DNA from: Marivita sp. GX14005
Lineage (GTDB): Bacteria; Pseudomonadota; Alphaproteobacteria; Rhodobacterales; Rhodobacteraceae
Direction of reading: 5' to 3'
Assembly (NCBI RefSeq): GCF_023370775.1
Contig: NZ_JAMCCQ010000002.1
Location: forward strand, 1 to 64,000
Length of the DNA: 64,000 bases
The notes below the pieces were generated by a model that saw only the letters and a program-made list of their open reading frames with translations, ran no database searches and was not told where the DNA came from. Within the stretch, counting starts at the first letter, position 1, and every line of letters begins with the position of its first letter. The position numbers and the translations under genes were made by a program. This document shows, in pieces, positions 2,666-49,115 of the stretch.

Positions 2666-2675
2666 GCGCCCTTTT
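2651..2675. terminator. Bidirectional intrinsic terminator
   Basis: GGGCGC and GCGCCC pair around a CTGA loop, with A4-5 before and T4 after, so it can work on both strands. It separates the convergent iron permease and iron binding-protein genes. The permease stop TGA forms part of the loop. Confidence 0.85.
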
Positions 2676-2696
2676 ACGGTTTCATTCCGGATCGGC

Positions 2697-3722: not shown

Positions 3723-3838
3723 GGGGGTCTCCGTGCTGTTAAACCTTATCGAAAAGGTCAGTTACACGAATCCGCCACAGGTTCAAGACATTCCGACAGA
3801 AACACTCGGACTTGGGGCGCGGTGAAATGAGGTCAAGA

Positions 3839-3872
3839 AAATGGCCCGCCAAGTTGACTTGGCGGGCCATTC
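3839..3872 (-). terminator. Intrinsic terminator of the RTX protease gene
   Basis: A 14-bp near-perfect stem (AATGGCCCGCCAAG paired with its complement) around a four-base loop is followed on the minus strand by a T-rich run (TTTTCTT). It lies about 30 bases past the stop of the RTX metalloprotease. Confidence 0.85.
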
Positions 3873-3901
3873 TTCGACGAATCATCGATTGCTGACGCGG
3901 G

Positions 3902-6028
3902 TCAGACCGCGAACGGATCGTCGAGCACACCGACCAGCGGCATCAGGAATTCGCCATTTACGGCATCCATTGCCGCGCTGTGCATGATCTCGATCGCCTC
4001 GACCGCATCGGACAGGCTCTGTGCGCTGCCGTCGAACAGGGCAAGCGCTTGCGTCGCATTGTCGACGTTGGACATGCCCTTATGAACAGAGAAGAATGCT
4101 CCGAGATCGGTTTTCTGCTCCAGATAGAGCTTGTCCGCCGCTTGCCGGTCGAGGAAAGCCTGAGACGCGCCTGCCGGAGCTTCGGCATCGACGCCGCGCA
4201 GCACTTCGAGGATGAATTCGCCGCGGGTGACATGACCGTCGTCCAGCGCCTTGGTCCAGAATTGCAGGCCTTCGGAATCCGGCGAGCGACCCAACACGTT
4301 CTGATACACATCGTAAGTGAACTTGATGTTGTTGGTGCCTTCCGGATAGACCTCGATCGTTTCCTCCTGGTCGGCGAAGTAATCCGCGATCTCCTCAAGA
4401 CTCATGCCATCTGCGTATTGCGTGCCCCAATAGGCGAGCCCAAGCGCATCGGGTGCGCGGTTGAAATAGGCGATATACATCTCGATGAAGAATTCCAGCG
4501 CTTCGGAATCAAGGCCGGTATGGCCGCCGAACTCGTCCAGCGCCATCGCACCATCCAGCGCCGGAATTTCGGTGCTGAAATCGATCAGTTCTACCGAATC
4601 GAGAACGACCTCGCCCCCGTCCGCACGGTTGGCGACGGTTACACCGTTTGCGCTGAAGGAAATCGTGAAGTCCGACTGATCGCCGCCGAAAACAGCGGTA
4701 TCCACGCCGTCACCACCTTCAATCCGCTCGACATCCTCGGAAACAACCAACGAGTCGTTGCCCGATGTGCCGCTGTGCTTGCCCTCTATCAACTCGAAAT
4801 TCGTGGCTGTAAGCGGAGATCCGCTTTGGAAATCGTGGAAAACGTCCACGGTGGTGCCGTCGCTCAACGTCACGCGGGAGACGTTTTCGGCGGCTTTGGT
4901 GACGGATGCCGCGGCAGCGGCCGTCGTGTCGAAACCGCTGTCAATCAGGCGGATGGTTTCGGTCGCGACGTCGAAGTCGGATATGGTGATCCTGTCATCG
5001 TTTTTCGCGATCTCGAAGACGTCCTGTCCGCTTTCGCCGAACAGGGTGTCATTCCCGGCGCCGCCGCGCAGAATGTCGTTGCCGGAGCCGCCTGCAAGGT
5101 AATCGTCGCCATTGCCGCCGATAAGAATGTCGTTCCCGGACTGGCCGAACAGGATGTCGTTTCCCGCCCCGCCGAGGAGCCGATCGTCGCCGCCGTCCCC
5201 CTGAAGTGTATCGTCACCGACCAAGCCGTTGATCGTATCGTTCACATCGCGACCGAAGACCAATTCACCGCGATCGGTCACGATGGGAGGCGTCGTTCCT
5301 TGCTTCGAAAATCCCGTGATCTCGTATCCGATATCCGCCAGGATCGCCTTGTCCACATCGCTGACCAGAACGCGCGTGCCGTCTGTCAGGGACGGATCGA
5401 GCGATACCGCATCATCGGCGAAGCCATTGCGGACGTGTCCGCCATCGGACGTTGTCGGGATCGGTCTGCCATCATTCTCGGCGCGTGCATTCGGGCCGGT
5501 GAAGCTGCTGCCTGACAGCCATTGATCGAACGCGCCGGAGGTTCCCACGCCGAGGATATGGCCGATCTCATGAACCGCAACCGATACGAAATCGCTCTCG
5601 TACCGTCCCGGATTACCAAGGCTGAAAGACCAGTCTGCGCTGGTGTCGAAGGTAATGGTGCCAGCCCAGGGTTCGAAATCGGTGACGGCGCCGGTGCCGC
5701 GGAAATCATCGCTGATGCGGGCATCATAAACGTCGCCAGCAGCATCCGTGCCATCGGGGCCGGCCAAGGCCAGCGTTGCGCCAGCCAGGTTCCGTGCACC
5801 GACAAAGACGATCAGATCGTCGACGGCTTGTGACAGGGTGACGGTTTCAATCCTGTCCGTCGTCGGATTGCGAATCTCGAATTGTGTGCCGGCGGGAAGA
5901 TCGTCGAATTCGTCATCGATGACCGTTTCCCACTGCGCGGCGGCCATTTCGAGCGCGGCGCGGCGGTCCGGGCTGTCGAAGAACCCGGAACTGTCGAAGC
6001 GATAATCGAATTTGATCGTGAACGTCAC
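3902..6028 (-). CDS. Secreted RTX metalloprotease with DUF4214 domain
   Basis: The protein of about 708 residues has three parts. Residues 1-240 are a zinc-metalloprotease domain with HEIGH at about 153-157. Residues 270-332 are tandem RTX nonapeptides (GGxGxDxLx) that bind calcium and mark type I secretion. A DUF4214 region ([12 protein letters not shown] and [15 protein letters not shown] repeats) follows to the C-terminus. The usual matrixin/serralysin third histidine after HExxHxxG is missing (the chain reads [11 protein letters not shown]); a His in SDGGH about 45 residues after the HExxH is the likely replacement. GTG 6028 is chosen because AAGGGAA stands 9 bases upstream and the extra 40 residues of the longer frame (ATG 6148) look non-coding. 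There is no Sec signal and no type I secretion genes nearby. Confidence 0.82.
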
Positions 6029-23279: not shown

Positions 23280-23325
23280 ATGGTGCCCGGGGGCGGAATC
23301 GAACCACCGACACGAGGATTTTCAA
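23280..23325. repeat. Left attachment site: tRNA-Phe 3' fragment
   Basis: These 46 bases are identical to 45475-45520 and contain the CCA end, T arm, variable loop and 3' anticodon arm of tRNA-Phe up to the anticodon loop. The sequence diverges immediately on both sides. It is the displaced tRNA end left by site-specific integration. No 5' half is present, so this copy makes no tRNA. Confidence 0.93.
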
Positions 23326-23478
23326 GCCGAAACGGCCTGATTTTCAGCGCCCTCCGATGCGGTCAGATAACCGCATTTCAGATATGATTTTTCAAATATC
23401 GCACTGTTTTTAATAGATAAAATATTACCTCGAGTCGCTCGAATCGAATTGTCTCGCATCGGGGTAGCTTGGCTTCTC

Positions 23479-23497
23479 TGTGCCACTGTTGTGCCAC
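23479..23497 (+). other. Paired TGTGCCAC motif, putative integrase arm site (left)
   Basis: TGTGCCAC occurs at 23479-23486 and again at 23490-23497, 11 bases apart in the same orientation. The same pair with the same spacing occurs near the right end of the island. This fits arm-type binding sites of a tyrosine integrase. It lies just upstream of the int start, so Int could also repress its own gene. Confidence 0.6.
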
Positions 23498-23540
23498 CAA
23501 GAAGCCCACCGCACATCCTTCTCGGAGCAGGAGAAATGTC

Positions 23541-24887
23541 ATGGCGAAAGTCGAACTTACCGAAAAATTCATCAAATCCAAGAAAGTCGCGAAGCGGACG
23601 GACATCACCGATACTAGGGAAACCGGCCTGATGATACGTATTTATCCTTCAGGGGTGAAATCCTTCGCATTTCGGCTGCGGGGTCCGGCCGGAGACCTCC
23701 AAAGCACACCGATCGGACACTTCGGCGACATTCGCCTTGCAGAGGCACGGCTGGCCGCCGCGGACCTGCGGCGGCGGTTGAAAGCCGGTGAGAACATCAC
23801 TGCCGCGGCAAAGAAGGAAGCCGCCGAGCGTGCCGCTGCAATGCAGTCCGCCATCCCGACCCTCCAAGAGCTTGTCGAAGAATATGAGAGGATCATGTCT
23901 ACGAAGCGGAAAACATGGCGACGCACGGTCAACGACAAAGGAAGCGAAGCACGCCGGCGCATCGAACGCGTTTTCCAACCGCACCTGATGACACAAGTAA
24001 CGGAGATAAGCCTGGATGATCTGGCCCACACCATGACGATATATGTGCCGCGATCCGGTAAGGGCACCGCGAATGGCCAAGTCGCGCGTGCGCGTTCCTA
24101 CCTGATGACAATGTTCGACTGGGCCGCCCATCGGAACAAGTTCAAACAGATCGGCTTGGGTAGGCGCCCGAAACTTGACGTGGTAGACGTGCGCCAGACC
24201 TATGATCCGTCTGTCGAAGATCATTCGATCACCGGCGAGCGGGACCGTGCTCTCGACCATCTGGAACTTGCACGCGTGCTTCCGCTGCTTGTCTGGCCCG
24301 CGCCCGAATGTCTTGCCATGAAGGCACGTCCGGAACTTAATGTGCGGCCGATAGCCCTGCGTTTCCTCCTGCTGACCGCCGCCCGCCTGTCCGAACTCGT
24401 CGACATGAGATGGGGCGACTTCAAGGAAGAGGTCGGTATTTGGCATAAGCCCTATGTAAAAACGATCTCAGGCCCGCCGAAGCAGCAGAACCTGCCGCTG
24501 TCCAACGCGGCCATTGAACTGCTGCGGGGGCTTCCAAATTTCGAGACCCGACAACGTGACGATCTCGTTTTTCCGAATGACGAAGGTGGTAGGCTCGGTA
24601 ACTGGCAGCGGATTACAGGAGCCGTGCATCGCGAGAGCGCGACGAGCGATTGGCATCGTCATGACCTTCGCAGGACTGCAGCGACGATCATGAAAATCCT
24701 GGGCATCTCGCCGCGCGTGATCGACGAGATCCTGGCGCACAATGCGTCCAGCAAGGACGAAGGGAGTTCTCGAGCCTTGGAAAACTATTTCGCGTCATCG
24801 CACCTGCTGGAGCACGTTGAGCACCCTCAGAAAGCGGCGCTGGACAAGCTGGCGGAGGCGTTAGAATTCATCGAGAGAAAAGAATGA
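23541..24887 (+). CDS. int: Tyrosine-type site-specific integrase (P4 family)
   Basis: This 448-residue recombinase has an N-terminal DUF4102-type arm-binding domain (GLMIRIYPSGVKSFAFRLRG), a core-binding domain, and a catalytic domain with Arg in TAARLSELV, HRHDLRR, His in ILAHNAS and the nucleophile Tyr in ALENYF. P4-type integrases recombine in the 3' end of tRNA genes, which matches the tRNA-Phe fragment 216 bases upstream. ATG 23541 has AGGAGAA ahead of it; 24 in-frame upstream codons run through the putative arm sites and are probably not translated. Confidence 0.93.
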   Translation: MAKVELTEKFIKSKKVAKRTDITDTRETGLMIRIYPSGVKSFAFRLRGPAGDLQSTPIGHFGDIRLAEARLAAADLRRRLKAGENITAAAKKEAAERAAAMQSAIPTLQELVEEYERIMSTKRKTWRRTVNDKGSEARRRIERVFQPHLMTQVTEISLDDLAHTMTIYVPRSGKGTANGQVARARSYLMTMFDWAAHRNKFKQIGLGRRPKLDVVDVRQTYDPSVEDHSITGERDRALDHLELARVLPLLVWPAPECLAMKARPELNVRPIALRFLLLTAARLSELVDMRWGDFKEEVGIWHKPYVKTISGPPKQQNLPLSNAAIELLRGLPNFETRQRDDLVFPNDEGGRLGNWQRITGAVHRESATSDWHRHDLRRTAATIMKILGISPRVIDEILAHNASSKDEGSSRALENYFASSHLLEHVEHPQKAALDKLAEALEFIERKE

Positions 24888-25358: not shown

Positions 25359-26594
25359 TCATGCACCCCCAGCGGTCAGCCGCTCAATCTCAGACCGCAG
25401 GAAGTGGTTTTCGACGGTTCGATACAGGTTGGCCCAATGGTTGCGATTCTTGCCAAGCACGTCCGGGGCGTTGCCGATGGACTTGACCGCCTCTCGCGTC
25501 TCGAGAACAAGGTCTTTTCCAATCTCACCCCACACCACCTTCACGTTGTCGAACCCGCCAACCCATTCAGCCTGGTCGCTATCCGGGTTAATCCGAACAT
25601 AGTTTCGAAACGATCCAAGAATGGGGTATGCTGCGCCCTTTGTGAGCCGTCGATCATGTGGCTCGAGACCCGCAAACCGGAATTGGAAAACACCGGACTT
25701 CTTTGGCGCATCCTCAACGATTTTCAGTTTGGCCGCCTGGTTGCTGACTTCCTTAGAGTAGATACGAAGGAAGTCCCGGCGGATAATATCGTAAAGCTCG
25801 AGAACTTGCGGCAGGAGGGGTTCGAATTTCGCGTATTTGCGGCCGCCAGGTTCATCCCGGTTTTCCTTGAAATCGTCGCCATACTTTTTAAGCGGCGTTG
25901 ACCACTTCTCATAGGCCGCGATGGGATGCTTCCCGCTGCGGTTCGGAAAATCAATCACGTTGATGATCTCGAGTGCCGAAATCAATTCCCGAACGTCGAT
26001 TTCGCTACTGTCGCTTTCCTTATATGCAATGTCGTTCGACCACTCGAATGGAGCGACAACGTCTTTGATACCCTGGAAAGCTCCGTCCAGTTCAAAGATG
26101 GACTGCGGCTTCACGGCGATGCCCGTGTTCTGCCCACGCGCAATGTCCACCCGCATGGTATGCTCATTCGGACCTTCAACGCCGGTGATGATCTTCACCT
26201 CTACGTGCTGGCCCTCAGCGATGGTGTCGTCGTCTTGGCATTCCCAGATCAGGTTGGCCGTGTGGCCCCCGTTGGCGATACCATAGTCGTCGTCTATCAG
26301 GACCTCGAACACCCGCTTGTCGAGGGCCTTAACGTCCTCACCGATGATGGTGATGCCGAGATTGAGCAAGTCGAAGGAACCAGGCAAAGCCTCGTTGCCG
26401 CGCAGGCTTTCGCGAACGTCCTTATAGACGTTGCGGTTCATGCCAGTCGCTTCGCGCAAATTGGCTTTCTGCGGGATTTCCTTGGGCAACCGCGCTGCGG
26501 GGACCAGGAAGATGTGTTTTTGAATGTTGGGGAAATGAGGATGCTTGAAGCTGCGCGCTTCCGCGACCTCGAACCTAAACGGTCGAATAGCCAT
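25359..26594 (-). CDS. AIPR family protein (abortive infection phage resistance)
   Basis: The 411-residue protein matches the AIPR family (PF10592 type): FDLLNLGITIIGEDV around residues 74-88 and DYGIANGGHTANLIWE around 103-118 correspond to the family's N-G-I and NGxxT signatures. AIPR proteins occur in phage-resistance plasmids and defence islands; their biochemical action is not settled, and some branches are associated with DNA modification or restriction genes. ATG 26594 (MAIRPFRFEV) is preferred to an open upstream extension of 40 residues. It stands alone on the minus strand, downstream of an IS5 fragment. Confidence 0.75.
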   Translation of the reverse strand: MAIRPFRFEVAEARSFKHPHFPNIQKHIFLVPAARLPKEIPQKANLREATGMNRNVYKDVRESLRGNEALPGSFDLLNLGITIIGEDVKALDKRVFEVLIDDDYGIANGGHTANLIWECQDDDTIAEGQHVEVKIITGVEGPNEHTMRVDIARGQNTGIAVKPQSIFELDGAFQGIKDVVAPFEWSNDIAYKESDSSEIDVRELISALEIINVIDFPNRSGKHPIAAYEKWSTPLKKYGDDFKENRDEPGGRKYAKFEPLLPQVLELYDIIRRDFLRIYSKEVSNQAAKLKIVEDAPKKSGVFQFRFAGLEPHDRRLTKGAAYPILGSFRNYVRINPDSDQAEWVGGFDNVKVVWGEIGKDLVLETREAVKSIGNAPDVLGKNRNHWANLYRTVENHFLRSEIERLTAGGA

Positions 26595-27363
26595 AGAATG
26601 GCTCCTTTTTTCAGTGCCGACGATGCGGCCTATGTCCTGCGGGCGCGATGGCCCTCCACAGGGGACACGATGGTCCAATTCCAAATTAGCACAGGACAAT
26701 CGTCGGCACAACATCTCGTGTTGAAGGCGGGCGCACCCCCTATTTAGACATCGTTGGCTATCCCTACGTCCGTTGGTTCCTAGTTCGCAGCGTCAAAGAA
26801 ATGAAATCAACGCATGGACACCCCGAGCACCCGAACGATGTATCCTCTTTCCGCCGTCCGTGACGTGACGGACGTGAAACCCGGCAAGTTCCAACGCCAC
26901 TTTTACGGCGATGTCTTGGACCCTGGAACGCGACGGGGGGTTTCCGGCGCAAATATCGGCCCCCATGCGGGGCGTGGGGGTTGGGCGGTTAATGGCCTTG
27001 GACGGCGCGATCCGCCTAGAAGTGTTCTTCTGCCTCCAGTCCAGCGGAGGTCCTGCTCGCTGATCCAGATTATGATGCGGATTGGTATCGCGAAGCCCTT
27101 GTAGACAACGAAATTTCTCCGTTCATCCGACTAGATAAGTCCGTTAATGGAAATCATGCTCATTGATCGGATTGGCGCGCGACAATCGATCGGGTTCAAG
27201 TATTAAGTCTTGCGACCCGCAGACGGTGGTTCCGCCGACGCTGTTGCTACCGACCAAGATCGGATGTGGCCGAATAGCATTTCTGCGCGCTAAGCTACGG
27301 AAACTCTTCATTATCGAACGGCGAATTTCCACTTCGCTCCAATTCTACCAGATCTTGTATTTG
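26595..27363. other. Non-coding, decayed stretch between AIPR and hsdR genes
   Basis: No intact gene is visible in these 770 bases. Part of it is a transposase fragment (about 27026-27166). Short open frames elsewhere have no coherent protein features. It probably holds the AIPR promoter at its left edge and insertion debris. Confidence 0.6.
27026..27166 (+). pseudogene. IS5-family transposase fragment
   Basis: In one frame the DNA reads SPAEVLLADPDYDADWYREALVDNEISPF before diverging and stopping at 27164. This matches the conserved LLADRGYDADWFRDAL...GISPCIP block around the second catalytic Asp of IS5-family (IS427-like) transposases. The rest of the transposase and the terminal repeats are not seen. 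It is a relic showing that another element once landed here. Confidence 0.55.
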
Positions 27364-30734: not shown

Positions 30735-32035
30735 GCGCTCATTTCCTTTTGAATGGCGTCGAGACGGCGGTCGGGCGTGCCGGATCTGGCGTAGGCCGTC
30801 ACGTCGATCTGCCCCGTGACAGCGGCGGTGATCAGGGCAGAGCGGTATTCCTTGAGGCGGTCGATGGATTTCTCGGTGCTTTGCTGCACCCGGATTATCC
30901 GCTCGCGTTCTCTTTCTGCCGAGGTTGCCCGACGAAATTGCTCGCCCCTCTCGACGTATTCGAACCTGAATGAATTCACTTGATCGGGACTTATGTGTGG
31001 GACGCTTACGCCAGTCATGATCGGTTCAAAATAAGCCAAGAATTGGCGACTGGTGAGCAGCAGTTTCATGAACTTCTTGTCCAACGTCGTTCGTGGTTCG
31101 ATCCGACAAACTCGTTGTAACAGCAGGGCAGGCGCATCTTGCTCTGTCACTTCCGCAACGCGGATACCCGATGAGATCCATGGACGGTCCATGCCAAGCA
31201 CAACATCACCAGAAGCCAGCAAGAATCGCGACACCTCGCCAAGCCGATCACGGGACCAATAGACGGTATCGTCCCACCTGATCGAACCGGGCGAGACATT
31301 TGCCCCTCTCAGCAGTCGAATGTTACCTGGATCAGTTGAGAAATCGCTACTCGGGAACGCATAACCCGACAGAATGTCAATGTGGTGGCCGAGTTTCGTC
31401 CGCTTGCCTTTTGTCGAGATCGCGTTCTCGACGACACTCGCCCATTTGTCCGCCAGCAACGCCACCAACCGCTGCTTTTTCTCGCTTAGCAGATCTATTC
31501 TTGCGGTCTCACGGTCCAGAAAATTGGCAATCCGGCGTTGGGTCGCAAGGTCGGGACGGTAGACCCAATCGTTTGGGAAATCTGCGAACTTCACAGACTG
31601 ACGAACGCCGCTGCCAAGCGAATAGTAATGCTTCGCCAGATCAAGCGCGAGCAGCGAGTAGAACCAGAAGCGCGGATCGTTGTCGCGCTGAACCTCGACC
31701 GCATCATAGGCAGAGGTGATGATACCCCGTTGAGTGACCAGACCTTGCCGAAGGCTGCGTTTGTCGTTTTGAAGATCGGTCAGTCGAAGCACGATATTGC
31801 CCGGTTCAACGATCTGATAGCCTTCGAAATTCTCCGGCAGCAGGCCATCGGCAGTCTCGATATCCTTCTGGACGATCCGCCCATAGCTGAGCGACAACAG
31901 GTTGTCTTCCCGCATCCCGGTATTCTTGTTGCCGCGCCGAACGCGAAACACCTGATGCAACTTGTCCCATTGCCAGCTTTCTGGCTTGGGCGCGGCATGG
32001 ACGCGTTCTTGCAGGGTGATAATCTGGCTTTTCAT
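30731..32035 (-). CDS. hsdS: Type I restriction enzyme specificity subunit (HsdS)
   Basis: The 434-residue protein has two target-recognition domains separated and followed by conserved helical spacers: DLATQRRIANFLDRETARIDLLSEKKQRL after the first and STEKSIDRLKEYRSALITAAVTGQIDV after the second. It sets the bipartite DNA sequence that the complex methylates or cuts. The start ATG 32035 overlaps the Abi_2 stop (ATGA) and has GGAGG nine bases upstream; 11 more in-frame residues upstream are unlikely to be used. Specificity cannot be read from sequence alone. Confidence 0.93.
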   Translation of the reverse strand: MKSQIITLQERVHAAPKPESWQWDKLHQVFRVRRGNKNTGMREDNLLSLSYGRIVQKDIETADGLLPENFEGYQIVEPGNIVLRLTDLQNDKRSLRQGLVTQRGIITSAYDAVEVQRDNDPRFWFYSLLALDLAKHYYSLGSGVRQSVKFADFPNDWVYRPDLATQRRIANFLDRETARIDLLSEKKQRLVALLADKWASVVENAISTKGKRTKLGHHIDILSGYAFPSSDFSTDPGNIRLLRGANVSPGSIRWDDTVYWSRDRLGEVSRFLLASGDVVLGMDRPWISSGIRVAEVTEQDAPALLLQRVCRIEPRTTLDKKFMKLLLTSRQFLAYFEPIMTGVSVPHISPDQVNSFRFEYVERGEQFRRATSAERERERIIRVQQSTEKSIDRLKEYRSALITAAVTGQIDVTAYARSGTPDRRLDAIQKEMSA

Positions 32036-32940
32036 CGAGCGACCCTCCATGAAGGTCTGGTTCGCCATTCGTCAGGAAACCCCATGCTGGCAGGGTCCGC
32101 CAGAGGGCATCCGTCGATCAATGCAACAACGCGGCTTCGCCATTCATTTTCCGGCGCGATCATCAGCAACAAGTAATCCAGCATCGCCAATGTGTTGTGC
32201 AGGTGGCGGGGGTCGGCACCCTTGACCGCAAGCTCCAGCTTTGCCGGACTTTTCGGCGTGGCCATTGTCACCGTGAACCGCTTGTTCCAAAGCCGACCGT
32301 GATGCGCACAAATGTTACGGATATAGCTCATGTGGTGGCAAAAAGACGTCAGAACCCGCTCGTCCAGCCCGAAAGGCTTGGCAATCGCGTTACGATCCGC
32401 CCGCCGCTCGAGGTTGAATATCCACTTTGACAGTTGTCCGAACGAAATCGTCTCTGCCGCCATCCAGATCGGCGGAAGGTTGGGTGACGTATATGTGCGG
32501 CGGTAGTGTTCGGCGAAGGTCTCGCGGGAGCGTTTGAACTCTTCGGTCAGGGTCGTCACCGCTTTGGCGTGACGGTCTTTACGATGATAGAGCCCCTGAT
32601 CAAGATATCCGTGCGGCCCATGCGCCATTGCCATGTAATGCGCCCATTGCGCGCGCAAGGCGACCTCAACCCGTTCGATGGCGTCCAGAACAAGGAGCCG
32701 CAGCTCACGGTCGAAAATGTAGAGCGTGAGAACATCTTCGAAGTTGGTGCCATCTTGAAAGGCGTGCTGGCCGTTTTCCTTGGCGGGAACCTCAAACGGC
32801 AGCCAATAGGCGCGCAACCTGTAGTAGGAGATGAAGCGCAGATAATGCTGCGCGCGCGCATCGTCATCGACAACCATGCCGCGGTTTTTTAAAAGCTTGA
32901 TTTGGTCGGGGATCGATGTGGAGGGTTTTTCAAACTTCAT
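32032..32940 (-). CDS. Abi_2 (AbiD/AbiF) family abortive infection protein
   Basis: The 302-residue protein matches Abi_2: KPSTSIPDQIKLLKNRGMVV at the N-terminus, YYRLRAYWLPF, and YIRNICAHHGRLWN near residues 206-219. The R208-N-x3-H213 motif is the RNase signature of the HEPN superfamily. Related lactococcal AbiD and AbiF proteins stop phage growth, probably by RNA cleavage on infection. It lies between hsdM and hsdS and is translationally coupled to hsdS, so it may serve as a backup that fires if restriction fails. A promoter-like sequence precedes it in the hsdM-abi gap. Confidence 0.88.
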   Translation of the reverse strand: MKFEKPSTSIPDQIKLLKNRGMVVDDDARAQHYLRFISYYRLRAYWLPFEVPAKENGQHAFQDGTNFEDVLTLYIFDRELRLLVLDAIERVEVALRAQWAHYMAMAHGPHGYLDQGLYHRKDRHAKAVTTLTEEFKRSRETFAEHYRRTYTSPNLPPIWMAAETISFGQLSKWIFNLERRADRNAIAKPFGLDERVLTSFCHHMSYIRNICAHHGRLWNKRFTVTMATPKSPAKLELAVKGADPRHLHNTLAMLDYLLLMIAPENEWRSRVVALIDGCPLADPASMGFPDEWRTRPSWRVAR

Positions 32941-35858: not shown

Positions 35859-37301
35859 GTGCGACCCTTCCTCACCTCACACGATACCGCTGAGCAATTC
35901 CTGGTTTACATGTTGCGGCCCGGCTCAGAGCCGCTCGGCGGCACCGTGCCGATCAAGAACCGGAAGGATGTGATCAGACGTTTCGAACGGCTCCGGCCGC
36001 CCGGCGACATGTCCAGCCCATTTCGGCATATCACCCTGTCGTTGCCTGAGGAATACATCGCCGACAAGCAAATCTGGCTCGAGATCGCTCAGACGGCAAT
36101 CAAGGCGCTCGGCCTGGATCCTATGCGCATGCCCTGGATTGCCGTGCGCCATACAGACAGCAATTGCGATCACATCCATATCGGCATATGTCTTTGTGAT
36201 TTCACCGGGCGCATTCATCGCATCTCGTCGCCCGAAGCCCGCTGTGAAAAGGCACACGCTTATTTGTGCGACATGCTCGGATTACCGGCCCCCGGCTACT
36301 TCGACCCCACCGCACCGCCACGCCTGGATCCGGTTACTCCGGAACGCCGGCTGACATCCGAACAGGCGCGGTTACTGCACACGGATTTGCAACATGTATT
36401 CCGGCATTCTCAGCCGGAGAGCCTGCCGGAACTTGATCGGGCTCTTTCATCACGCCCGGGAGAATTTCGAGCCGAGATAACGCCCAACAAATCCGGCCGA
36501 CCCTCATTCGCATTTACGAACCCGGAGAGCACGATAAGGGGCGGTGAACTCGGAAAGGCCTGGTGGCCGAAGTTCTTGAACGCCCGCCTCTCTTTCGCGC
36601 GCGCGCTCCGACGTCTTCGTCACAACCTCGGCCTGGATCATCTAACCCAGATTCTCACACAGCCACACATGGAGAAGCTCCTTGAAAACCTCATCAAAGT
36701 CACAGACCAAGCTCGAATTGCCAGAAGATTTGCAGATAATCTACGAGCTGATCAAGATTACGGACGCGAACGTCGTGGCTCTGCATTCCTTGCTGAACCT
36801 GTTGGATCGCCCGGACGATCAACAACAGACGCTTGGGGAACGGCTAGCCACCCTGATGCAACACCTGACGGATTCGCAGATTCAGTATCAGGAACAGCTG
36901 ATAGCGATGACTTCGGAAATGGCGGCACTGCGGGACGACCTGAAAGCGGCAATCGGGACCCAGAAAGAAGATCGGCGGAGACAGGAAAAGAAACTGGATC
37001 GCGTCTTGTCGCTCCTGAACCTGCCCATGGATTGACGATGGGCGCGCTCATTGCACGAGCTTGCGAAGCGGCCAGACGGGGCACACCGGGGTGGCGCATA
37101 AGACCGCTCGTGAAATCGAGGGGAGTCGCCGTGGCCTTTCATGATCGTAGCGCAGCACTTGCCGGCGTGGGCGGCGCGGAAATCGTGAAGGCAGGCGCTG
37201 CGGCCGAGATGTTTTCGAACGAATACAACGCCATCTTCAAAGACAATGAGGCTGGTGAACCCGCCTTGGATGAGGAGGCAAAACTTGGGCTGGGGGCCTG
37301 A
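35859..37301 (+). CDS. Relaxase / mobilization nuclease
   Basis: The 480-residue protein has the three-histidine relaxase motif HTDSNCDHIHI (H98, H105, H107), with a likely catalytic Tyr17 in FLVYML. These residues bind a metal and nick one strand at oriT for transfer. The N-terminal 200 residues form the relaxase domain; the rest is low-complexity, rich in G, S, D and R, then a helical end. The start is GTG 35859, three bases after the MobC-like stop. The low-complexity part coincides with a second gene in another frame (36682-37035). No coupling protein or type IV secretion genes are in the island, so a helper plasmid would be needed. Confidence 0.85.
   Translation: MRPFLTSHDTAEQFLVYMLRPGSEPLGGTVPIKNRKDVIRRFERLRPPGDMSSPFRHITLSLPEEYIADKQIWLEIAQTAIKALGLDPMRMPWIAVRHTDSNCDHIHIGICLCDFTGRIHRISSPEARCEKAHAYLCDMLGLPAPGYFDPTAPPRLDPVTPERRLTSEQARLLHTDLQHVFRHSQPESLPELDRALSSRPGEFRAEITPNKSGRPSFAFTNPESTIRGGELGKAWWPKFLNARLSFARALRRLRHNLGLDHLTQILTQPHMEKLLENLIKVTDQARIARRFADNLRADQDYGRERRGSAFLAEPVGSPGRSTTDAWGTASHPDATPDGFADSVSGTADSDDFGNGGTAGRPESGNRDPERRSAETGKETGSRLVAPEPAHGLTMGALIARACEAARRGTPGWRIRPLVKSRGVAVAFHDRSAALAGVGGAEIVKAGAAAEMFSNEYNAIFKDNEAGEPALDEEAKLGLGA
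36682..37035 (+). CDS. Nested mobilization-type protein overlapping the relaxase gene
   Basis: This 117-residue frame lies wholly inside the relaxase gene, shifted by one base. It begins at TTG with GGAGAAG seven bases upstream. The protein is strongly helical and coiled-coil-like (ELPEDLQIIYELIKITDANV, LTDSQIQYQEQLIAMTSEMA, EDRRRQEKKLDRVLSLLNL), whereas the relaxase frame here is disordered. In ColE1-type plasmids mbeB and mbeD lie inside the relaxase gene mbeA in the same manner, and MbeB/MobB stabilise the relaxosome. A similar function is inferred from layout; I do not recognise sequence identity. Confidence 0.6.
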   Translation: MKTSSKSQTKLELPEDLQIIYELIKITDANVVALHSLLNLLDRPDDQQQTLGERLATLMQHLTDSQIQYQEQLIAMTSEMAALRDDLKAAIGTQKEDRRRQEKKLDRVLSLLNLPMD

Positions 37302-40298: not shown

Positions 40299-40316
40299 CC
40301 CGTGGATGTCTCGAAA

Positions 40317-40562
40317 ATGAATATTCGAGAGACATTCGCGCGAAATCTGCGCCAGGCACGTCGCGTCAAGGGCTTCTCACAGGAAGAACTCGCTGACAGA
40401 GCCGAGCTTGACCGGACCTACATCAGCGCCTTGGAGCGGTCTGTCTACAATGCCACGATCGAGGTTGTTGAGCGGCTTGCGACGGCGCTCGAGATTGAAC
40501 CGGCCGCCCTGCTTCAGCGTCAGAAAGATCAGGCGTCGAAATCCGACCAGCTGGGCCGATAG
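40317..40562 (+). CDS. XRE-family regulator resembling restriction controller (C) proteins
   Basis: The 81-residue protein is a single helix-turn-helix of the Cro/C1 type: RNLRQARRVKGFSQEELADRAELDRTYISALERSVYNATIEVVERLATALEIEPAALL. Size and the RTYIS-LER recognition helix match controller proteins of restriction-modification systems such as C.AhdI. The palindrome just upstream is the likely operator. ATG 40317 (MNIRETF) is chosen; a GTG at 40302 lies in the repeat. It could control the island's RM operon or the flanking genes. Confidence 0.8.
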   Translation: MNIRETFARNLRQARRVKGFSQEELADRAELDRTYISALERSVYNATIEVVERLATALEIEPAALLQRQKDQASKSDQLGR

Positions 40563-40572
40563 AGCAAAACGC

Positions 40573-40761
40573 TCATTCTCTGTCGAAGCTCTTCTCTTCT
40601 AGCCATTCCGCGAGACCGCGCCGGATCATCTCCGGCCGCGTCGGCAGGTCGTTCTCGCGCCGCCGTAGATCATCGATCGCATCGATCATCTTGCGCGGCA
40701 GGCGCAAGTTCACGGCTTCCGTATCAACGCGCGGTCTACCTTTTTTCGATTTTTCGCTCAT
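40573..40761 (-). CDS. Ribbon-helix-helix DNA-binding protein (CopG-like)
   Basis: The 62-residue protein has a basic N-terminus (SEKSKKGRPR), a beta strand (AVNLRLPRKM) and two helices (IDAIDDLRRRENDLPTRPEMIRRGLAEWL), the RHH fold used by CopG/ParD/MetJ-type repressors. No toxin gene follows in the same direction; the XRE gene is convergent, ending 10 bases away. The start codon lies in one arm of an ATGACACC/GGTGTCAT inverted repeat, a possible autoregulatory site that also overlaps the promoter of the rightward gene at 40878. Confidence 0.75.
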   Translation of the reverse strand: MSEKSKKGRPRVDTEAVNLRLPRKMIDAIDDLRRRENDLPTRPEMIRRGLAEWLEEKSFDRE

Positions 40762-40803
40762 GACACCGAATCTCCGTTTGACTTAATGGTTTTATGGTGT
40801 CAT
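40760..40803. promoter_or_regulatory. Divergent promoter/operator between RHH gene and rightward module
   Basis: On the plus strand TTGACT (40778-40783) and CATATT (40801-40806) are separated by 17 bases, a good promoter for the gene at 40878. ATGACACC at 40760-40767 and GGTGTCAT at 40796-40803 bracket it, and ATGGT occurs twice inside. The RHH protein is the likely ligand, linking it to control of the 40878-44629 module. Confidence 0.5.
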
Positions 40804-40877
40804 ATTGTGCGGACGGAAGCAAGGACTCCTACACCCCTGCGACCGTCCTAACCAAGTCGATCTGATAGGAGATCAAG

Positions 40878-41405
40878 ATGGCTACCCAAACCGTTATCAC
40901 GCCCCCGAGGGCGAATGAAGCCCCGCGCGAAACCCCTGCTTCCAGGACATTTCCCATGCTTCTCGCCGCGCTTCACGATTTCATCGCGGCAGAACGCGAT
41001 CTGGAAGAAATCAGCTACAACCAGGATCCGGCTTATAGTGCATGGATGCGCGATGCTGAGCTTGCGCATGAGCGCCTAACCGAGACCTTGCGCAGCTTTC
41101 ATGGGTTGGACGCGGAAGTTCGCGAGGACCAGCCCCTCAAGCGGATGGCGAAAGTGATCGATGAAATGCTGGGGCATGAGGAGCCCGGAGGCGCCCGCCG
41201 TTTGCACCTGGCCATGCAGGTGGCGTTCTTCACCCGTTTTCAAGCTTCGGGTATCGGCGCGACGGCAATGCACCGGAACGGACTCTTGGTTCAGGCCCGA
41301 CATCTCGTGACAGCAATGATCCAGTTGCCGCTCTTCGATAGCGCCTCTCTCGAGGAGGCTGCCAGCGAGCATGATGCGGAAACCGAAATGTGGGCCGCCT
41401 TCTAG
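40878..41405 (+). CDS. Uncharacterised helical protein of 175 aa
   Basis: I do not recognise this protein. After a Pro-rich disordered start (TVITPPRANEAPRETPASR) it is nearly all helical (LLAALHDFIAAERDLEEIS, SAWMRDAELAHERLTETLRSFHG, LKRMAKVIDEMLGHE, AMQVAFFTRFQASGI). No signal peptide or membrane helix is present, so it is cytoplasmic. It is the first gene of a rightward set with the GIY-YIG-like and AAA-M41 genes and has a good promoter upstream. TAGGAGATC seven bases before the ATG supports the start. Confidence 0.75.
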   Translation: MATQTVITPPRANEAPRETPASRTFPMLLAALHDFIAAERDLEEISYNQDPAYSAWMRDAELAHERLTETLRSFHGLDAEVREDQPLKRMAKVIDEMLGHEEPGGARRLHLAMQVAFFTRFQASGIGATAMHRNGLLVQARHLVTAMIQLPLFDSASLEEAASEHDAETEMWAAF

Positions 41406-41549
41406 CGCTGACTTTTTCTGGCAGTTTCTCTTCCGGCCTACGCGGGAAGAGAAGCACCATCCGCTCATCATTCCACAAAGAATTTCAGTCTCTTAGCGCC
41501 GCGATCAATGACGCGTGTGCCAAGAGTCAACCTCACCGGAGGAACTTCT

Positions 41550-42482
41550 ATGACTCAAACCCTTATGATCGCCGGCAGCCCTGTTCCTGTCTTTCCCGGG
41601 GAAATCCTGCCGCACTGGATCGAAGCCGCACGTGCAAAAGGCTACGAACTTGTTGCTAGAATCTCCGACCGCCTCCATGTCGCACTTCGCTGTTCCCAGT
41701 GCGGCGCATTGATCAGGGTTCGCATCTATACGTTGATGTCCGCACATCCGCTGTGCCCGGCTTGCGTTCAGGCTGGCTGGATCACGACGGCGCAGGCCGC
41801 AGGTCTGACATATCTCGGTCGTTGCAGTGAGGATCGGCACTATGCGATCTATCGCGCGCAGTGCGGCCATCTGGTCCGTCGGCAGTTTGAACTCGTTGAG
41901 CGGTCTGCGGCTGGAAAGACGCGCATCCGTTGCGAGGTTTGCCATAACGATTACGAAAAACAGGAAGCGGCAAAAGAAGGCTGGACGCTGCTCGGTTCTG
42001 ACCCGGAAGGCAACATAAGTTACCGCAGTTACCAGCATGATGCATGCGGGCATATCCAGCGTCTTGCGAGAGCCAACATTCAGACCGGCCGGGTGTCCTG
42101 CGGATCCTGCGGCGACCAGTGGCCCGCCGCACCGAGCCATCTTTATGCAATGCGGTTCGTTTTGCCAAACAGCCATGAGTTGGTCAAATTGGGTTACTCG
42201 AACAACCCGCACAGCCGCTTGCACCATCAGTTAATCAAGGACCCGGACCTGCCCTGCGCCATCCTGCGCACCGTCCCCGTGGCGTCGGGACAGGTGGCCA
42301 TCCAGACCGAAAAGGCTCTGCATCGGAAACTCCGCCGTGAGCATCCCGAAGCCGTTGTCGATCCGAAAATTTATAGGGATGCACTCCGTGTGAAGTCCGA
42401 GATCTACGACGCCGATCTGACACCCATGATCGTCGCCGAGCTGGACAAGATCGCCGCGCGAAACTCACCGACCGTCTCCTAA
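41550..42482 (+). CDS. GIY-YIG-like (T5orf172/MUG113) protein with repeated Cys pairs
   Basis: The 310-residue protein has two parts. Residues 40-190 hold three zinc-ribbon-like units: CSQC (48-51) with CPAC (69-72), CGH (105) with CEVC (128-131), and CGH (166) with CGSC (184-187). Residues 197-280 look like a T5orf172/GIY-YIG nuclease domain: HLYAMRF, then VKLGYSNNPHSRL, then IQTEKALHRKLR with the likely catalytic Glu. The Cys units probably bind DNA and direct the nuclease. Homing and defence proteins share this layout. ATG 41550 has GGAGG at good spacing; 14 in-frame codons upstream are not needed. Confidence 0.75.
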   Translation: MTQTLMIAGSPVPVFPGEILPHWIEAARAKGYELVARISDRLHVALRCSQCGALIRVRIYTLMSAHPLCPACVQAGWITTAQAAGLTYLGRCSEDRHYAIYRAQCGHLVRRQFELVERSAAGKTRIRCEVCHNDYEKQEAAKEGWTLLGSDPEGNISYRSYQHDACGHIQRLARANIQTGRVSCGSCGDQWPAAPSHLYAMRFVLPNSHELVKLGYSNNPHSRLHHQLIKDPDLPCAILRTVPVASGQVAIQTEKALHRKLRREHPEAVVDPKIYRDALRVKSEIYDADLTPMIVAELDKIAARNSPTVS

Positions 42483-42505
42483 CCTCGATCGATCGCACAT
42501 CTCTT

Positions 42506-42528
42506 TCCCTCCGGCCAAGCCGGAGGGA
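42506..42528 (+). terminator. Hairpin between the GIY-YIG-like and AAA-M41 genes
   Basis: TCCCTCCGGC and GCCGGAGGGA form a perfect 10-bp stem with a three-base loop. No T-run follows, so it may protect the upstream mRNA or partly stop transcription before the protease gene 32 bases on. Confidence 0.5.
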
Positions 42529-42559
42529 GCGCCCCCTAGCTTATACGGAGTATCCGCCC

Positions 42560-44629
42560 ATGCCTGTCTCAACCGAAAGAAACCCCTCTTGGTTCACCTA
42601 CGCCAACAAACTGATCGACTGCCTGCGGCATCGCCACGGTGTCCGCCAGTTACCAAGAAAGAATGACGCTGAACCGTCTGAACTCGATAATCTTTTTCAG
42701 AAACTTGAGGGGCCGGAGCCTGGCGACACCTTTACGGACGCGCCATATGCTTCTTCGCGTCAAGTCCCAGCCCGCCAGCTTCTCACAGTCATCAGGCTCG
42801 CCGCGACTATCGGATCGCAAGATCGCGAGCGCGACTGCATGAGATGCGGTGCGCTGACCGTGATCAACGGAATTGACGTCGATGACACGCAGAATTTGAA
42901 AGAAGTGGCGACCGAGGTTCTGCCGTCACGGTTGGCGATCTTCTCTCCCGACATCTTGGAGGGAGCACTGTCGAAATCTGCTCAACCCCGTTTCGAGCGC
43001 GCGATTGGAGAAGCCCTTGATCGCATCGATCCGGCACTCATTCTCCAAGCCGACGGCGTCAAGCCGCCCAAGGCCGTGACTGCCAGCGCACCGACCGTGC
43101 TGACATTCGCCCCGGTCACAGGTGACGTGATCCTCAAGTTTATCGAGGCCGGACATCTGTCTGACCATATCACGGACCGCGGCAAGCTGCGCGATGCGCT
43201 CTGCTCTGATGAGGTTTTGGCTAAACTGTCGACAGCTGAAATCTGCGCCGCCCTCCGGGCACCTTCTCTTCACCAGGCCATCGCTCAATTGAGCCAGCTT
43301 GCTCAACGAGATCGCCGCACCGATGGGCCTTGTCTGGAAGACATGACCGGTGACGCTCCGGCGCTCGAAGCCGCGCGTCGTATCGTTTCCGACCTGCGGG
43401 CCTGGAGCGCAGGCAAAGCCGAATGGAATGAACTCAGTCATTCCCTCCTGTTCTATGGCGTGCCCGGCACCGGCAAAACTTTTCTCGCGCAAGCCATGGC
43501 CAACAGTTCCGGCATATCGCTGGTCACGGGCAATTTCGGCACCTGGCAGGCAGCTGGCCATCTTGGCGATATGCTTAGGGAGATGCGCGCAACGTTCACG
43601 GAAGCGCGGCGGCGGGCACCCTGTTTGCTGCTGATCGACGAGATCGATGCGGTCGGGTCGCGATTCGACACGGACCGGCATGGGAGCAACTACCGGGCGC
43701 AGGTGATCACCACCTTCCTCACCGAACTCGACCGGATCGGCAGCGAGGAAGGCGTTGTTGTGGTTGGGACATGCAATGAAATAGACCGCATCGACCCCGC
43801 CGTCATTCGCGCGGGAAGGATGGATGTCAAAATCGAGGTTCCGTTGCCCGATGCCGAGGCCCTTCTTGCCATCCTGCGTTACCATCTGTCGGAAGACATC
43901 GCAGACCACGAACTGCGCGTCTTGTCCCGGCGTGCTTTGGGAAAAACGGCGGCGGATATCGACGCCGCTATCCGGGCCGCGCGCTCGGATGCGCGACATC
44001 AGCGCAAGCTGTTGACCACGGCAATGCTGAAGAAACAACTGCACGTCGATTCCGCGATGGAAAACCGCGATCTGACATGGCGCATCGCAGTCCATGAAGC
44101 CGGACACGCCGTAGTCGCAACGGCACTCGGAACGGGCGACGTCGAGCGGATCTCGATCACCGAGGAAGGCGGGAAAATCTGGTGCCGTCCTCGGCGTCAC
44201 GAGAGCCGCCTTTCGGATCTGGAGGCCGAGGTGACCTACTCTCTGGCGGGACGCGCAGCCGAGCGGCTCCTGCTTGATGAGATCTCCGCCGGTGCGGGTG
44301 GCCCCGCGCATTCCGATCTTGCGCAGGCCACTCGTCAGTCGATCGACATCGAAACCAGGTTCGGGCTCGGTTACGAAGGCCCAGTTTGGCATTCCAAGCC
44401 CGAAGCGGTCTACCTCGCGACTCCTCAAATCCGGGACAAGGTTCGTCAGAGGATCATCCGCGCAGAACGCCACGCGGGTGAAATCCTGACGCGAAATCAG
44501 CACCACCTTGAGGCATTGGCACGCCATTTGGTCGAGCACCGGTCCATGAAGGCGCAAGCCGTTGCTCGGTTGCTGGAGTGTGTCTCGTCTCCACCGCCGA
44601 AGCAACCCGGTCAGGACATATCCGCCTGA
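42560..44629 (+). CDS. Soluble AAA+ ATPase with M41 (FtsH-like) zinc protease domain
   Basis: The 689-residue protein has a unique N-terminal region (1-280), an AAA+ module with Walker A GVPGTGKT (300-307), Walker B CLLLIDEID (355-363), sensor GTCNEIDRID and arginine-finger region DPAVIRAGRMD, then a C-terminal M41 peptidase with HEAGH (512-516) and the third zinc ligand Asp586 in PAHSDLAQAT. FtsH proteins carry two N-terminal membrane helices; none is seen here, so it should be cytoplasmic. It presumably unfolds and degrades specific proteins, with the N-terminal region choosing targets. In a mobile island this may serve phage defence or element control; that is inference. Confidence 0.85.
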   Translation: MPVSTERNPSWFTYANKLIDCLRHRHGVRQLPRKNDAEPSELDNLFQKLEGPEPGDTFTDAPYASSRQVPARQLLTVIRLAATIGSQDRERDCMRCGALTVINGIDVDDTQNLKEVATEVLPSRLAIFSPDILEGALSKSAQPRFERAIGEALDRIDPALILQADGVKPPKAVTASAPTVLTFAPVTGDVILKFIEAGHLSDHITDRGKLRDALCSDEVLAKLSTAEICAALRAPSLHQAIAQLSQLAQRDRRTDGPCLEDMTGDAPALEAARRIVSDLRAWSAGKAEWNELSHSLLFYGVPGTGKTFLAQAMANSSGISLVTGNFGTWQAAGHLGDMLREMRATFTEARRRAPCLLLIDEIDAVGSRFDTDRHGSNYRAQVITTFLTELDRIGSEEGVVVVGTCNEIDRIDPAVIRAGRMDVKIEVPLPDAEALLAILRYHLSEDIADHELRVLSRRALGKTAADIDAAIRAARSDARHQRKLLTTAMLKKQLHVDSAMENRDLTWRIAVHEAGHAVVATALGTGDVERISITEEGGKIWCRPRRHESRLSDLEAEVTYSLAGRAAERLLLDEISAGAGGPAHSDLAQATRQSIDIETRFGLGYEGPVWHSKPEAVYLATPQIRDKVRQRIIRAERHAGEILTRNQHHLEALARHLVEHRSMKAQAVARLLECVSSPPPKQPGQDISA

Positions 44630-45474: not shown

Positions 45475-45520
45475 ATGGTGCCCGGGGGCGGAATCGAACC
45501 ACCGACACGAGGATTTTCAA
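45475..45520. repeat. Right attachment site within tRNA-Phe
   Basis: This 46-base copy of the direct repeat forms the 3' part of the intact tRNA-Phe gene, from the base after CCA to the anticodon loop. The island brought its own copy of the tRNA 3' end, so the gene stayed functional after integration. Confidence 0.93.
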
Positions 45521-45550
45521 TCCACTGCTCTACCCCTGAGCTACCCGGGC
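45476..45550 (-). tRNA. tRNA-Phe (GAA)
   Basis: The minus strand folds as a complete 75-base tRNA with 7-bp acceptor stem GCCCGGG/CCCGGGC, anticodon GAA in loop TTGAAAA, T loop TTCGATT and encoded CCA at 45478-45476. It is the integration target of the island. The 28:42 position of the anticodon stem is a T-T pair, which occurs in related tRNA-Phe genes. Confidence 0.95.
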
Positions 45551-47636: not shown

Positions 47637-49115
47637 CTAAATCTCTATTTTGCTCTTTAGATACGTAAGGAAGTCGCTAACTTCAGCTCGGTAAGTTTCG
47701 CTCCATATTGTCGAAAAGGCCATTTGTACAGTTTTCTCTGGCACAAAACCAAGTCTTTCGCCAATTTGATTGAATAAAACGTGTTCATCCAAATTGGCCA
47801 GACGAGTTTCCGTAAGAACCTGGTGGACTTTATCGGTGTTCTCAAATTTTTGTAGAAGAGCTACCGTGAGTCGTCCTCCAACTACTGCCCATTTTTCTAG
47901 CACGCGATCAAATACATATCCTTCTGGCATCTGGCCAGGAAGTCGGAATGCGTAATCCAACAATGTGTGATCCTGCTCGCTATCTCCATCGATAACGACT
48001 AAAGCCGGATTTTTTATGGCTGGATTCTCGTTGTGGGACACTGCCATTTTGTATGCGTTCCCATCTCCGTGAAGTGCATGGATTTCGACTTGATCGAGGA
48101 AACTAGTGTTTTCTACCCTTAGGATAGCCTCCACCCAAGTTTTGGCAAAATCATCCTCGACGAAAATTGCAATTTTCTTTTCAATTTTTCCAGATATCGC
48201 TCGAAGGGATTCAACGTCCATTTTACCCTGAAAGATTCGATCTGGCGTCGCTACCCAAATCGCTTTATCGGGTAGGACTCCCAAAGCATCATTTGAGTGG
48301 GTTGTGAATACTACTTGCGAACTCTTCTCTTTAGCAGCAGAGATAAGATAGTCTACTAATCTCACAGTTGCCACTGGATGCAGGCCGTTCTCGATTTCCT
48401 CTATAAGGATCAGCGAATTTTTGTCGGCTGACTCTATTTGCGCAATCATTCGAATAACACTAGATTCGCCCGCGCCGAAATGAAACTCGGAATAGGACGA
48501 TCCATCCTTGGCGCTGCCCGCCAAGAAGATTACCTTTCCCAACTCGTCTACCTTGAGCCGTTTGAAGAGGGAAATATCTTTCCCGATGACCCGTGAGGCG
48601 GCGGAAATTACCTTATCGTTAAAAAGCTCCTCATTTTCTATTGGAACCTGAAAGCTATTAGACGCATATTTTCTGAATTCTTTCTTTTCGGATGCCGGAA
48701 CAGTTCTGTTAACTCCGAAAATAAGAACGTCACGGATTAGTGAGTCTCTATTCCATCTGAATTGACGGAAGCGTGCTGTTCTTTGAACTGTGCTATTTTT
48801 GCTTTCGTCTCGATCAACGAGTTCATACGTGATTTTCCAGTCTTGCATCGTGTCGTCATACTTACCTCCTTTTGGGAAAAAGCGGCCAGGCGGAACACTT
48901 TTATAAATCAAGGCGGCCGCACCTAGAATAGTAGTTTTGCCTCCGCCGTTTGGGCCGATAATCGCGGTGACTGGAAATTCAAAATTAACTCGTTGATCGC
49001 GTACGCCACGAACAAAATCTAAGTTAAGCGATGCTAAGTATTTCCCGTACTTCTTTTCTCTTACCTTTTCTAGAAGTTGGTTTATATCCGATGTTCGAAT
49101 GTCACTTCTGATCAT
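47637..49115 (-). CDS. OLD-family AAA ATPase-TOPRIM endonuclease
   Basis: The 492-residue protein joins an SMC/ABC-type ATPase with Walker A GPNGGGKTT (54-62), signature FGAGESS (213-219), Walker B LILIEEIENGLHP (235-247) and His switch TTHSND, to a TOPRIM nuclease with FVEDD (Glu320) and VVIDGDSE (Asp376, Asp378). This is the plan of class 1 OLD nucleases, which cut DNA and defend against phages, as P2 Old does against lambda. No UvrD-like partner (as in Gabija) is present. The DNA is markedly AT-richer than neighbouring ccrM and aroC, so it is a recent acquisition outside the island. Confidence 0.85.
   Translation of the reverse strand: MIRSDIRTSDINQLLEKVREKKYGKYLASLNLDFVRGVRDQRVNFEFPVTAIIGPNGGGKTTILGAAALIYKSVPPGRFFPKGGKYDDTMQDWKITYELVDRDESKNSTVQRTARFRQFRWNRDSLIRDVLIFGVNRTVPASEKKEFRKYASNSFQVPIENEELFNDKVISAASRVIGKDISLFKRLKVDELGKVIFLAGSAKDGSSYSEFHFGAGESSVIRMIAQIESADKNSLILIEEIENGLHPVATVRLVDYLISAAKEKSSQVVFTTHSNDALGVLPDKAIWVATPDRIFQGKMDVESLRAISGKIEKKIAIFVEDDFAKTWVEAILRVENTSFLDQVEIHALHGDGNAYKMAVSHNENPAIKNPALVVIDGDSEQDHTLLDYAFRLPGQMPEGYVFDRVLEKWAVVGGRLTVALLQKFENTDKVHQVLTETRLANLDEHVLFNQIGERLGFVPEKTVQMAFSTIWSETYRAEVSDFLTYLKSKIEI

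Follow-up and report, generated by a model that had tools for sequence, protein, structure and literature searches.

The 64,000-nucleotide stretch of DNA analyzed here, called the window throughout, comprises positions 1 to 64,000 of contig NZ_JAMCCQ010000002.1 of Marivita sp. GX14005, and coordinates below refer to it unless another locus is named. It contains three consecutive rightward genes, HEL, GIY and AAA-M41 (Table 1), which we treat together as a candidate module. A preliminary description of this DNA had read them as encoding a helical protein, a GIY-YIG-like nuclease and an AAA-M41 protease; all three open reading frames (ORFs) were confirmed, and the assigned parts were matched by the structural model of HEL, the family profiles of GIY and the Pfam domains of AAA-M41.

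Table 1. Features of the module, its immediate neighbors and its carrying element (window coordinates)
Feature	Position	Strand	Description
HEL	40878-41405	+	175 aa; small all-helical protein; first module gene
GIY	41508-42482	+	324-aa ORF; GIY-YIG (T5orf172/MUG113-type) nuclease, putative, with three Cys/His zinc sites
AAA-M41	42560-44629	+	689 aa; AAA+ ATPase fused to M41 zinc metalloprotease, predicted soluble
RHH (CopG-type) regulator	40573-40761	-	PF01402, 5.4e-07; divergent from HEL, 116 bp to its left
XRE gene	40302-40562	+	Further left than RHH
Promoter-like site	40778-40806	+	TTGACT-17-CATATT (sigma-70-like); RHH/HEL intergenic region, ahead of HEL
Left attachment repeat	23280-23328		49 nt, 98% identical to the copy in tRNA-Phe
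Right attachment repeat	45475-45523		Overlaps tRNA-Phe gene, 45476-45550 (-)
Integrase of carrying element	23469-24887	+	phrog_1 integrase, 1.8e-32; beside left repeat; context, outside module
MobA/VirD2-type relaxase of carrying element	35859-37301	+	PF03432, 3e-11; context, outside module
AbiU/Abi-alpha-like protein	25359-26714	-	PADLOC, 2e-8, partial match; inside element
AbiD protein	32032-32940	-	PADLOC, 6e-73; inside element
HEC-04 protein	47637-49115	-	PADLOC, 4.5e-207; defense candidate; just right of element

Because no terminator-like site was found on the + strand in either the 102-bp gap between HEL and GIY or the 77-bp gap between GIY and AAA-M41, co-transcription of the three genes appears plausible. 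A site answering to the good promoter with which they had been credited is present. Two sigma-70-like sites in 4.35 kb are no more than chance would give (shuffled mean 1.4), but the TTGACT of this one is invariant across six aligned loci (the window locus and five close relatives). GIY probably begins not at 41508 but at 41550, an alternative start with GGAGG upstream that yields a 310-aa product. Putative stem-loops lie in both gaps, at about 41424-41457 (folding z-score -2.67) and at 42506-42528 (z-score -1.55).

AAA-M41 matched two Pfam domains above their curated cut-offs, AAA (PF00004, residues 296-429, 4.1e-31) and Peptidase_M41 (PF01434, residues 508-670, 7.2e-16); its N-terminal region (approximately residues 1-255) is variable. 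Invariant in 45 sequences were K306 (which we assign to Walker A), D360 and E361 (presumably Walker B), arginines R417 and R420, the H512, E513 and H516 that we take to form HExxH, and D586. This arrangement of an AAA domain followed by an HExxH-bearing Peptidase_M41 domain is that of FtsH. Unlike FtsH, which is membrane-anchored, AAA-M41 had no transmembrane-like or strongly hydrophobic stretch (maximum Kyte-Doolittle value of 1.33 over 19 residues) and lies in a putative operon with a nuclease gene; it is predicted to be soluble and FtsH-like. On the FtsH_fam model it reached 172.8 bits, where the cut-off is 600. In a separate bit-score list the module family stands apart: its members scored at least 300 bits, and the other AAA-M41 matches, taken as FtsH, scored below 260 bits.

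The nuclease assignment of GIY was weak from the window protein alone, for which the T5orf172 match fell below the Pfam cut-off (14 bits versus 20, E 0.077) and NCBIfam returned zinc-finger matches only, all below cut-off, but it appears to hold at the family level. T5orf172 was matched by 7 of 13 family members (best 1.4e-5) and MUG113 likewise by 7 of 13 (E up to 0.1 for both), and GIY matched the PHROG family phrog_681, "endonuclease" (1.5e-14). The catalytic module of GIY-YIG enzymes consists of a conserved Tyr, a K-x-G-x-S motif, an Arg and a Glu; in the GIY alignment Y213, K227, G229 and S231 were each present in 118/118 sequences, R237 in 117/118 and E268 in 115/115. The 12 ligand columns of the three Cys/His zinc sites were each kept in 114 to 118 of 115 to 118 sequences. 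Together these patterns point to a T5orf172/MUG113-type GIY-YIG nuclease.

HEL is predicted to be a helical bundle (AlphaFold2 mean pLDDT 90.0; helices at residues 20-43, 51-75, 82-99, 103-115 and 128-148). No telling relative emerged for this confidently predicted fold, and searches of profile libraries including Pfam, NCBIfam, PADLOC and PHROG matched the protein to no family at better than E 0.1. The protein diverges fast, with 20 to 43% identity to the window HEL among 31 relatives. Across nine locus pairs, dN was lower than dS in 25 of the 26 gene comparisons; only HEL of the near-identical pair L093/L094, which had no synonymous change, departed from this. The pattern indicates purifying selection on HEL, GIY and AAA-M41 alike.

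Conservation of the gene triplet

Co-occurrence of the triplet in other genomes had been set beforehand as a test, and it held. In a separate collection of 79 related loci, by title mostly from Rhodobacterales and Martelella, HEL lay upstream of GIY in 65/73 loci, AAA-M41 downstream in 59/63, and both in 51/58, with denominators counting the loci with enough flank. Among the eight loci scored as lacking HEL, five carry an ORF of 156 to 162 aa in the HEL position that has a similar N-terminus and was missed by the profile; the other three do not. A divergent RHH homologue accompanied 50/73 loci with enough flank, and the RHH gene is counted as part of the module. The XRE gene was considered as a further member and rejected, a homologue lying within 6 kb in only 1/79 loci. 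Thus, of the two regulators previously noted beside the triplet, both are present in the window and only RHH recurs with the triplet.

The same association was seen across the order, in a sample of 390 genomes from 139 genera: GIY was found in 49 genomes, HEL in 42, AAA-M41 in 67 (90 places at 300 bits or more) and any of the three in 73, with HEL reaching 26 and GIY 30 of the genera. Among the 65 GIY matches (with one split match joined and two fragments of another gene entered separately), at least 48 had AAA-M41 directly downstream, at least 42 had HEL upstream and at least 32 had both. These counts are lower bounds, as two AAA-M41 candidates were scored per genome and some misses fell at contig ends; at least three of the 17 GIY matches counted as lacking AAA-M41 do have it (G014:C39, L082 and L083). 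The association of the three genes is far beyond chance, and the triplet is a conserved unit, carried on mobile DNA in marine and soil bacteria. That the genes are unlinked and became neighbors by accident is, given the retention of all three in 51/58 loci and the spread of HEL and GIY over genera, an explanation we regard as having virtually no chance of being correct.

Beyond the order, the family was found at E 1e-85 only in the class of Marivita sp. GX14005, in 12/337 genomes of a class sample and 13/349 of a phylum sample; three candidates were scored per genome, the genome of Marivita sp. GX14005 was itself in both samples, and four of the phylum matches were in its family. Among phage records, 2/50,697 matched GIY, weakly and partially (25% identity). 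A first scan of viral contigs gave 15 pattern matches and no relative, and a second gave one relative among 70: the IMG/VR contig L195, which carries HEL and GIY (2303-4113) without AAA-M41 within a 9-kb stretch. Near this pair lies a 659-aa ORF that, by eye, resembles a tape-measure protein.

The nuclease slot

Of the 90 AAA-M41 places in the order sample, 48 had GIY and 42 did not. The latter often showed HEL, a gap of approximately 0.8 to 1.1 kb and then AAA-M41. Examination of 29 of these 42 (of the other 13, several begin no more than a few hundred bases into a contig) revealed a PD-(D/E)XK enzyme at 19 places, in one case split over two ORFs, a CoiA-like protein at one, and no recognized nuclease upstream at nine, including one HEL plus AAA-M41 pair. 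The PD-(D/E)XK enzymes form one family, in which D131, Q144 and K146 (a D...QxK motif) were invariant in 17 aligned sequences, two of them (L014 and L075) from outside the 29 places. PF11645 matched one of ten middle genes above cut-off (L075) and five below; four, one being the CoiA-like protein, had no match. The CoiA-like protein, of 512 aa, had a weak CoiA nuclease match below cut-off (E 0.13).

Mapping the GIY or PD-(D/E)XK label onto the AAA-M41 tree of 56 loci (those with either nuclease and a HEL, eight HELs of PD-(D/E)XK loci having been chosen by position rather than by profile) required nine changes, at least six of them forced by starred branches, against a shuffled mean of 13.4. 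With four labels (GIY, PD-(D/E)XK, CoiA-like and none) on 86 rows, 17 changes were counted against a shuffled mean of 26.7, on a FastTree phylogeny with long branches flagged. On these trees, therefore, GIY-YIG and PD-(D/E)XK enzymes have repeatedly taken each other's place on an unchanging HEL/AAA-M41 chassis. Nothing else points as strongly to a conflict system as this swapping, which would have been outside the reach of any reading of the window alone. In four loci (L052, L053, L073 and L077) the HEL ORF was 319 to 353 aa long, gave two HEL matches and consisted of two HEL-like halves in tandem; three of these are PD-(D/E)XK loci, and the remaining one is cut off by the end of its contig.

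The only good PDB match of the PD-(D/E)XK family profile was 2ost ("Putative endonuclease," 3.6e-4), which we take to be the homing endonuclease I-Ssp6803I. This match, the phrog_681 match of GIY and the HEL and GIY pair on a viral contig would fit a module serving the biology of its carrier, in which the nuclease aids movement, homing or processing of the element and AAA-M41 clears proteins off DNA. The carriers differ, however (a tRNA-Phe element in Marivita sp. GX14005 and plasmids elsewhere), so that the module looks like cargo, and the swapping of unrelated nucleases would be unexpected for a dedicated mobility function; we consider such a role improbable.

Carrying element and candidate function

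The 49-bp direct repeats, the overlap of one of them with tRNA-Phe, the integrase and the relaxase together delimit a 22-kb integrative mobilizable element at tRNA-Phe, which by these sequence features is the island in which the module lies, near the right end. The same element carries a type I restriction-modification system (R and S identified by PADLOC, hsdM found separately), and this, with the AbiD and AbiU-like genes, upholds the earlier characterization of the island as defense-rich. A HEC-04 gene follows just outside the element.

A second, diverged triplet occurs on contig C5 of the same genome (locus L007), with 33% identity in HEL, 54% in GIY, and 54 and 52% in AAA-M41, which is read in two frames. 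At the frame change lies an exact 92-bp tandem duplication (L007:8933-9116); the HEL and nuclease ORFs of this copy are open.

Our preferred reading, which we hold tentatively, is that the triplet is a conflict module borne on mobile elements, directed against phages or plasmids and possibly abortive, with a protease-controlled nuclease. The nuclease in the middle slot would be the effector, because this is the component that relatives swap, just as variable-effector systems swap theirs. HEL would be its cognate partner, keeping it inactive or aiming it, because HEL lies directly upstream, varies fast and stays with GIY on the viral contig that lacks AAA-M41. The soluble unfoldase-protease AAA-M41 would then be the switch, removing HEL (its likeliest substrate) or the nuclease once an invader is sensed, and the removal of HEL would free the nuclease. 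Alternatively, the protease may act as a safety catch on the nuclease, which would fit the rarity of a nuclease without AAA-M41 (4/63). The RHH protein may repress the operon. Like the preliminary description, we infer a sensing-and-killing function from this arrangement, with the nuclease as killer, HEL as restraint, proteolysis as trigger and invaders as the target.

A less likely, though serious, alternative is an addiction module of the toxin-antitoxin kind that stabilizes plasmids and integrative elements and protects the carrier rather than the cell, with the nuclease as toxin, HEL as antitoxin, AAA-M41 turning over one of them and RHH as autoregulator. Type II toxin-antitoxin operons characteristically include RHH regulators. 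Beside the nuclease lie an RHH gene and HEL. Mobile genes also occurred in the flanks of relatives: among 148 genes there were four Resolvase and four Recombinase matches (probably the same genes), two rve, two relaxase, and one each of IS66, IstB, DDE_Tnp_1_4 and a type IV secretion system coupling protein, none of which was among the 25 of 102 control families shown, where a phage portal was present. An asymmetry would fit addiction as well: a nuclease is rarely without AAA-M41 (4/63), and AAA-M41 is without a recognized nuclease at 9 of the 29 non-GIY loci examined. Two points argue against addiction: a toxin-antitoxin pair would not need two large enzymes whose catalytic residues are so strictly conserved, and the broken AAA-M41 of the second copy did not keep the Marivita strain from surviving with the nuclease gene of that copy open. 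These data do not discriminate between defense of the cell and maintenance of the carrier.

Several observations weigh against the conflict-module reading. Around 18 relatives (148 of 155 called genes, compared with 148 of 176 at 18 control stretches, arbitrary positions on large contigs unmatched to the accessory setting), 14 PADLOC models matched one gene each at E 1e-20, that is, 1 to 14 proteins of 148, and at the controls one model matched 1/148; the matches are few, and enrichment for defense is not clear. Proximity to HsdR was weak: 3/75 modules had it within 20 kb, one of them the window locus, against 0.66 expected for an assumed 4-Mb genome (P 0.029). The nine places without a recognized upstream nuclease count here too. 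The nuclease label is clustered on the AAA-M41 tree (17 changes against the shuffled 26.7), so swaps were repeated but not free, and HEL tracked nuclease type no closer than AAA-M41 did (8 versus 9 changes at 56 loci, the HEL tree being long-branched). Lastly, the second copy keeps HEL and GIY with a broken AAA-M41, so its loss is tolerated, at least beside an intact paralogue.

Known systems and Rhizobiales relatives

The earlier statement that the three genes do not make up a known system together stands, insofar as no PADLOC or NCBIfam model and no open-access literature was found naming the module. PADLOC, applied to the three window proteins, had no match at E 0.01 for HEL and GIY, and HEL had no NCBIfam match at 0.1; at 0.01 there was none for three more GIY proteins, three PD-(D/E)XK enzymes and the CoiA-like protein. 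AAA-M41 matched models of FtsH, IetA and further AAA proteins; in NCBIfam its scores fell short of each cut-off listed.

IetAS, an anti-phage system of an AAA ATPase and a subtilisin-like protease, offers the same pairing of ATPase and protease, and PADLOC IetA models matched AAA-M41 (2.6e-24). The match was limited to the AAA part (residues 291-494), the NCBIfam IteA score was 81 bits against a cut-off of 510, and no IetS match was obtained in PADLOC for HEL, GIY or AAA-M41; in the module the protease is of the M41 type and fused, and a nuclease and a helical gene are added. Lamassu and other variable-effector systems combine a variable effector with constant control genes, an SMC-type ATPase in the case of Lamassu. 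The module shares this logic and differs in its control genes, and the three proteins had no PADLOC match of that kind. HerA likewise pairs with more than one effector, Sir2 among them. DUF4297-HerA is an ATPase-nuclease defense complex in which the nuclease is activated through a ring ATPase (PMC11291478). HerA is not known to be a protease, and the complex is not known to include a helical gene. No homology was found between the module and DUF4297-HerA.

Variable-effector logic is thus already known, and it is the HEL/AAA-M41 chassis that appears undescribed. The module could represent an undescribed class of immune system, a possibility we put forward with slightly more reserve than the conflict-module reading itself, in which a constant, soluble FtsH-like protease sensor-switch is joined by a fast-evolving helical adaptor to any of several pluggable unrelated nucleases as the weapon (GIY-YIG, PD-(D/E)XK, CoiA-like and, in Rhizobiales, perhaps other enzymes). 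An FtsH-type protease is known as the control unit of few prokaryotic conflict systems. If nucleases are exchanged on a fixed protease chassis, regulated proteolysis would be tied to nucleic-acid cutting, whether of invader or host. Such a module would lend itself to a simple test of which protein is broken down and at what moment, and would give meaning to genes that on Rhodobacterales plasmids are annotated just generically, as "AAA family ATPase," "GIY-YIG nuclease family protein" and "hypothetical protein."

Some AAA-M41 relatives on Rhizobiales plasmids lie beside a 300-aa protein in which an E, a TPD and a D-K pattern were invariant in 4/4 sequences and for which no Pfam nuclease match above cut-off was obtained. 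In four Rhizobiaceae plasmids AAA and M41 are separate ORFs, whereas the module has one fused protein, and no HEL homologue was detected among 14 proteins tested from the loci of the Rhizobiales relatives. At two further loci with AAA-M41 relatives, one from Azospirillum, neither partner type was recognized. In L165 and L168 (Bradyrhizobium and Bosea plasmids), metallophosphoesterase and DUF6634 genes adjoin the AAA-M41 relative, possibly as another enzyme on the same chassis.

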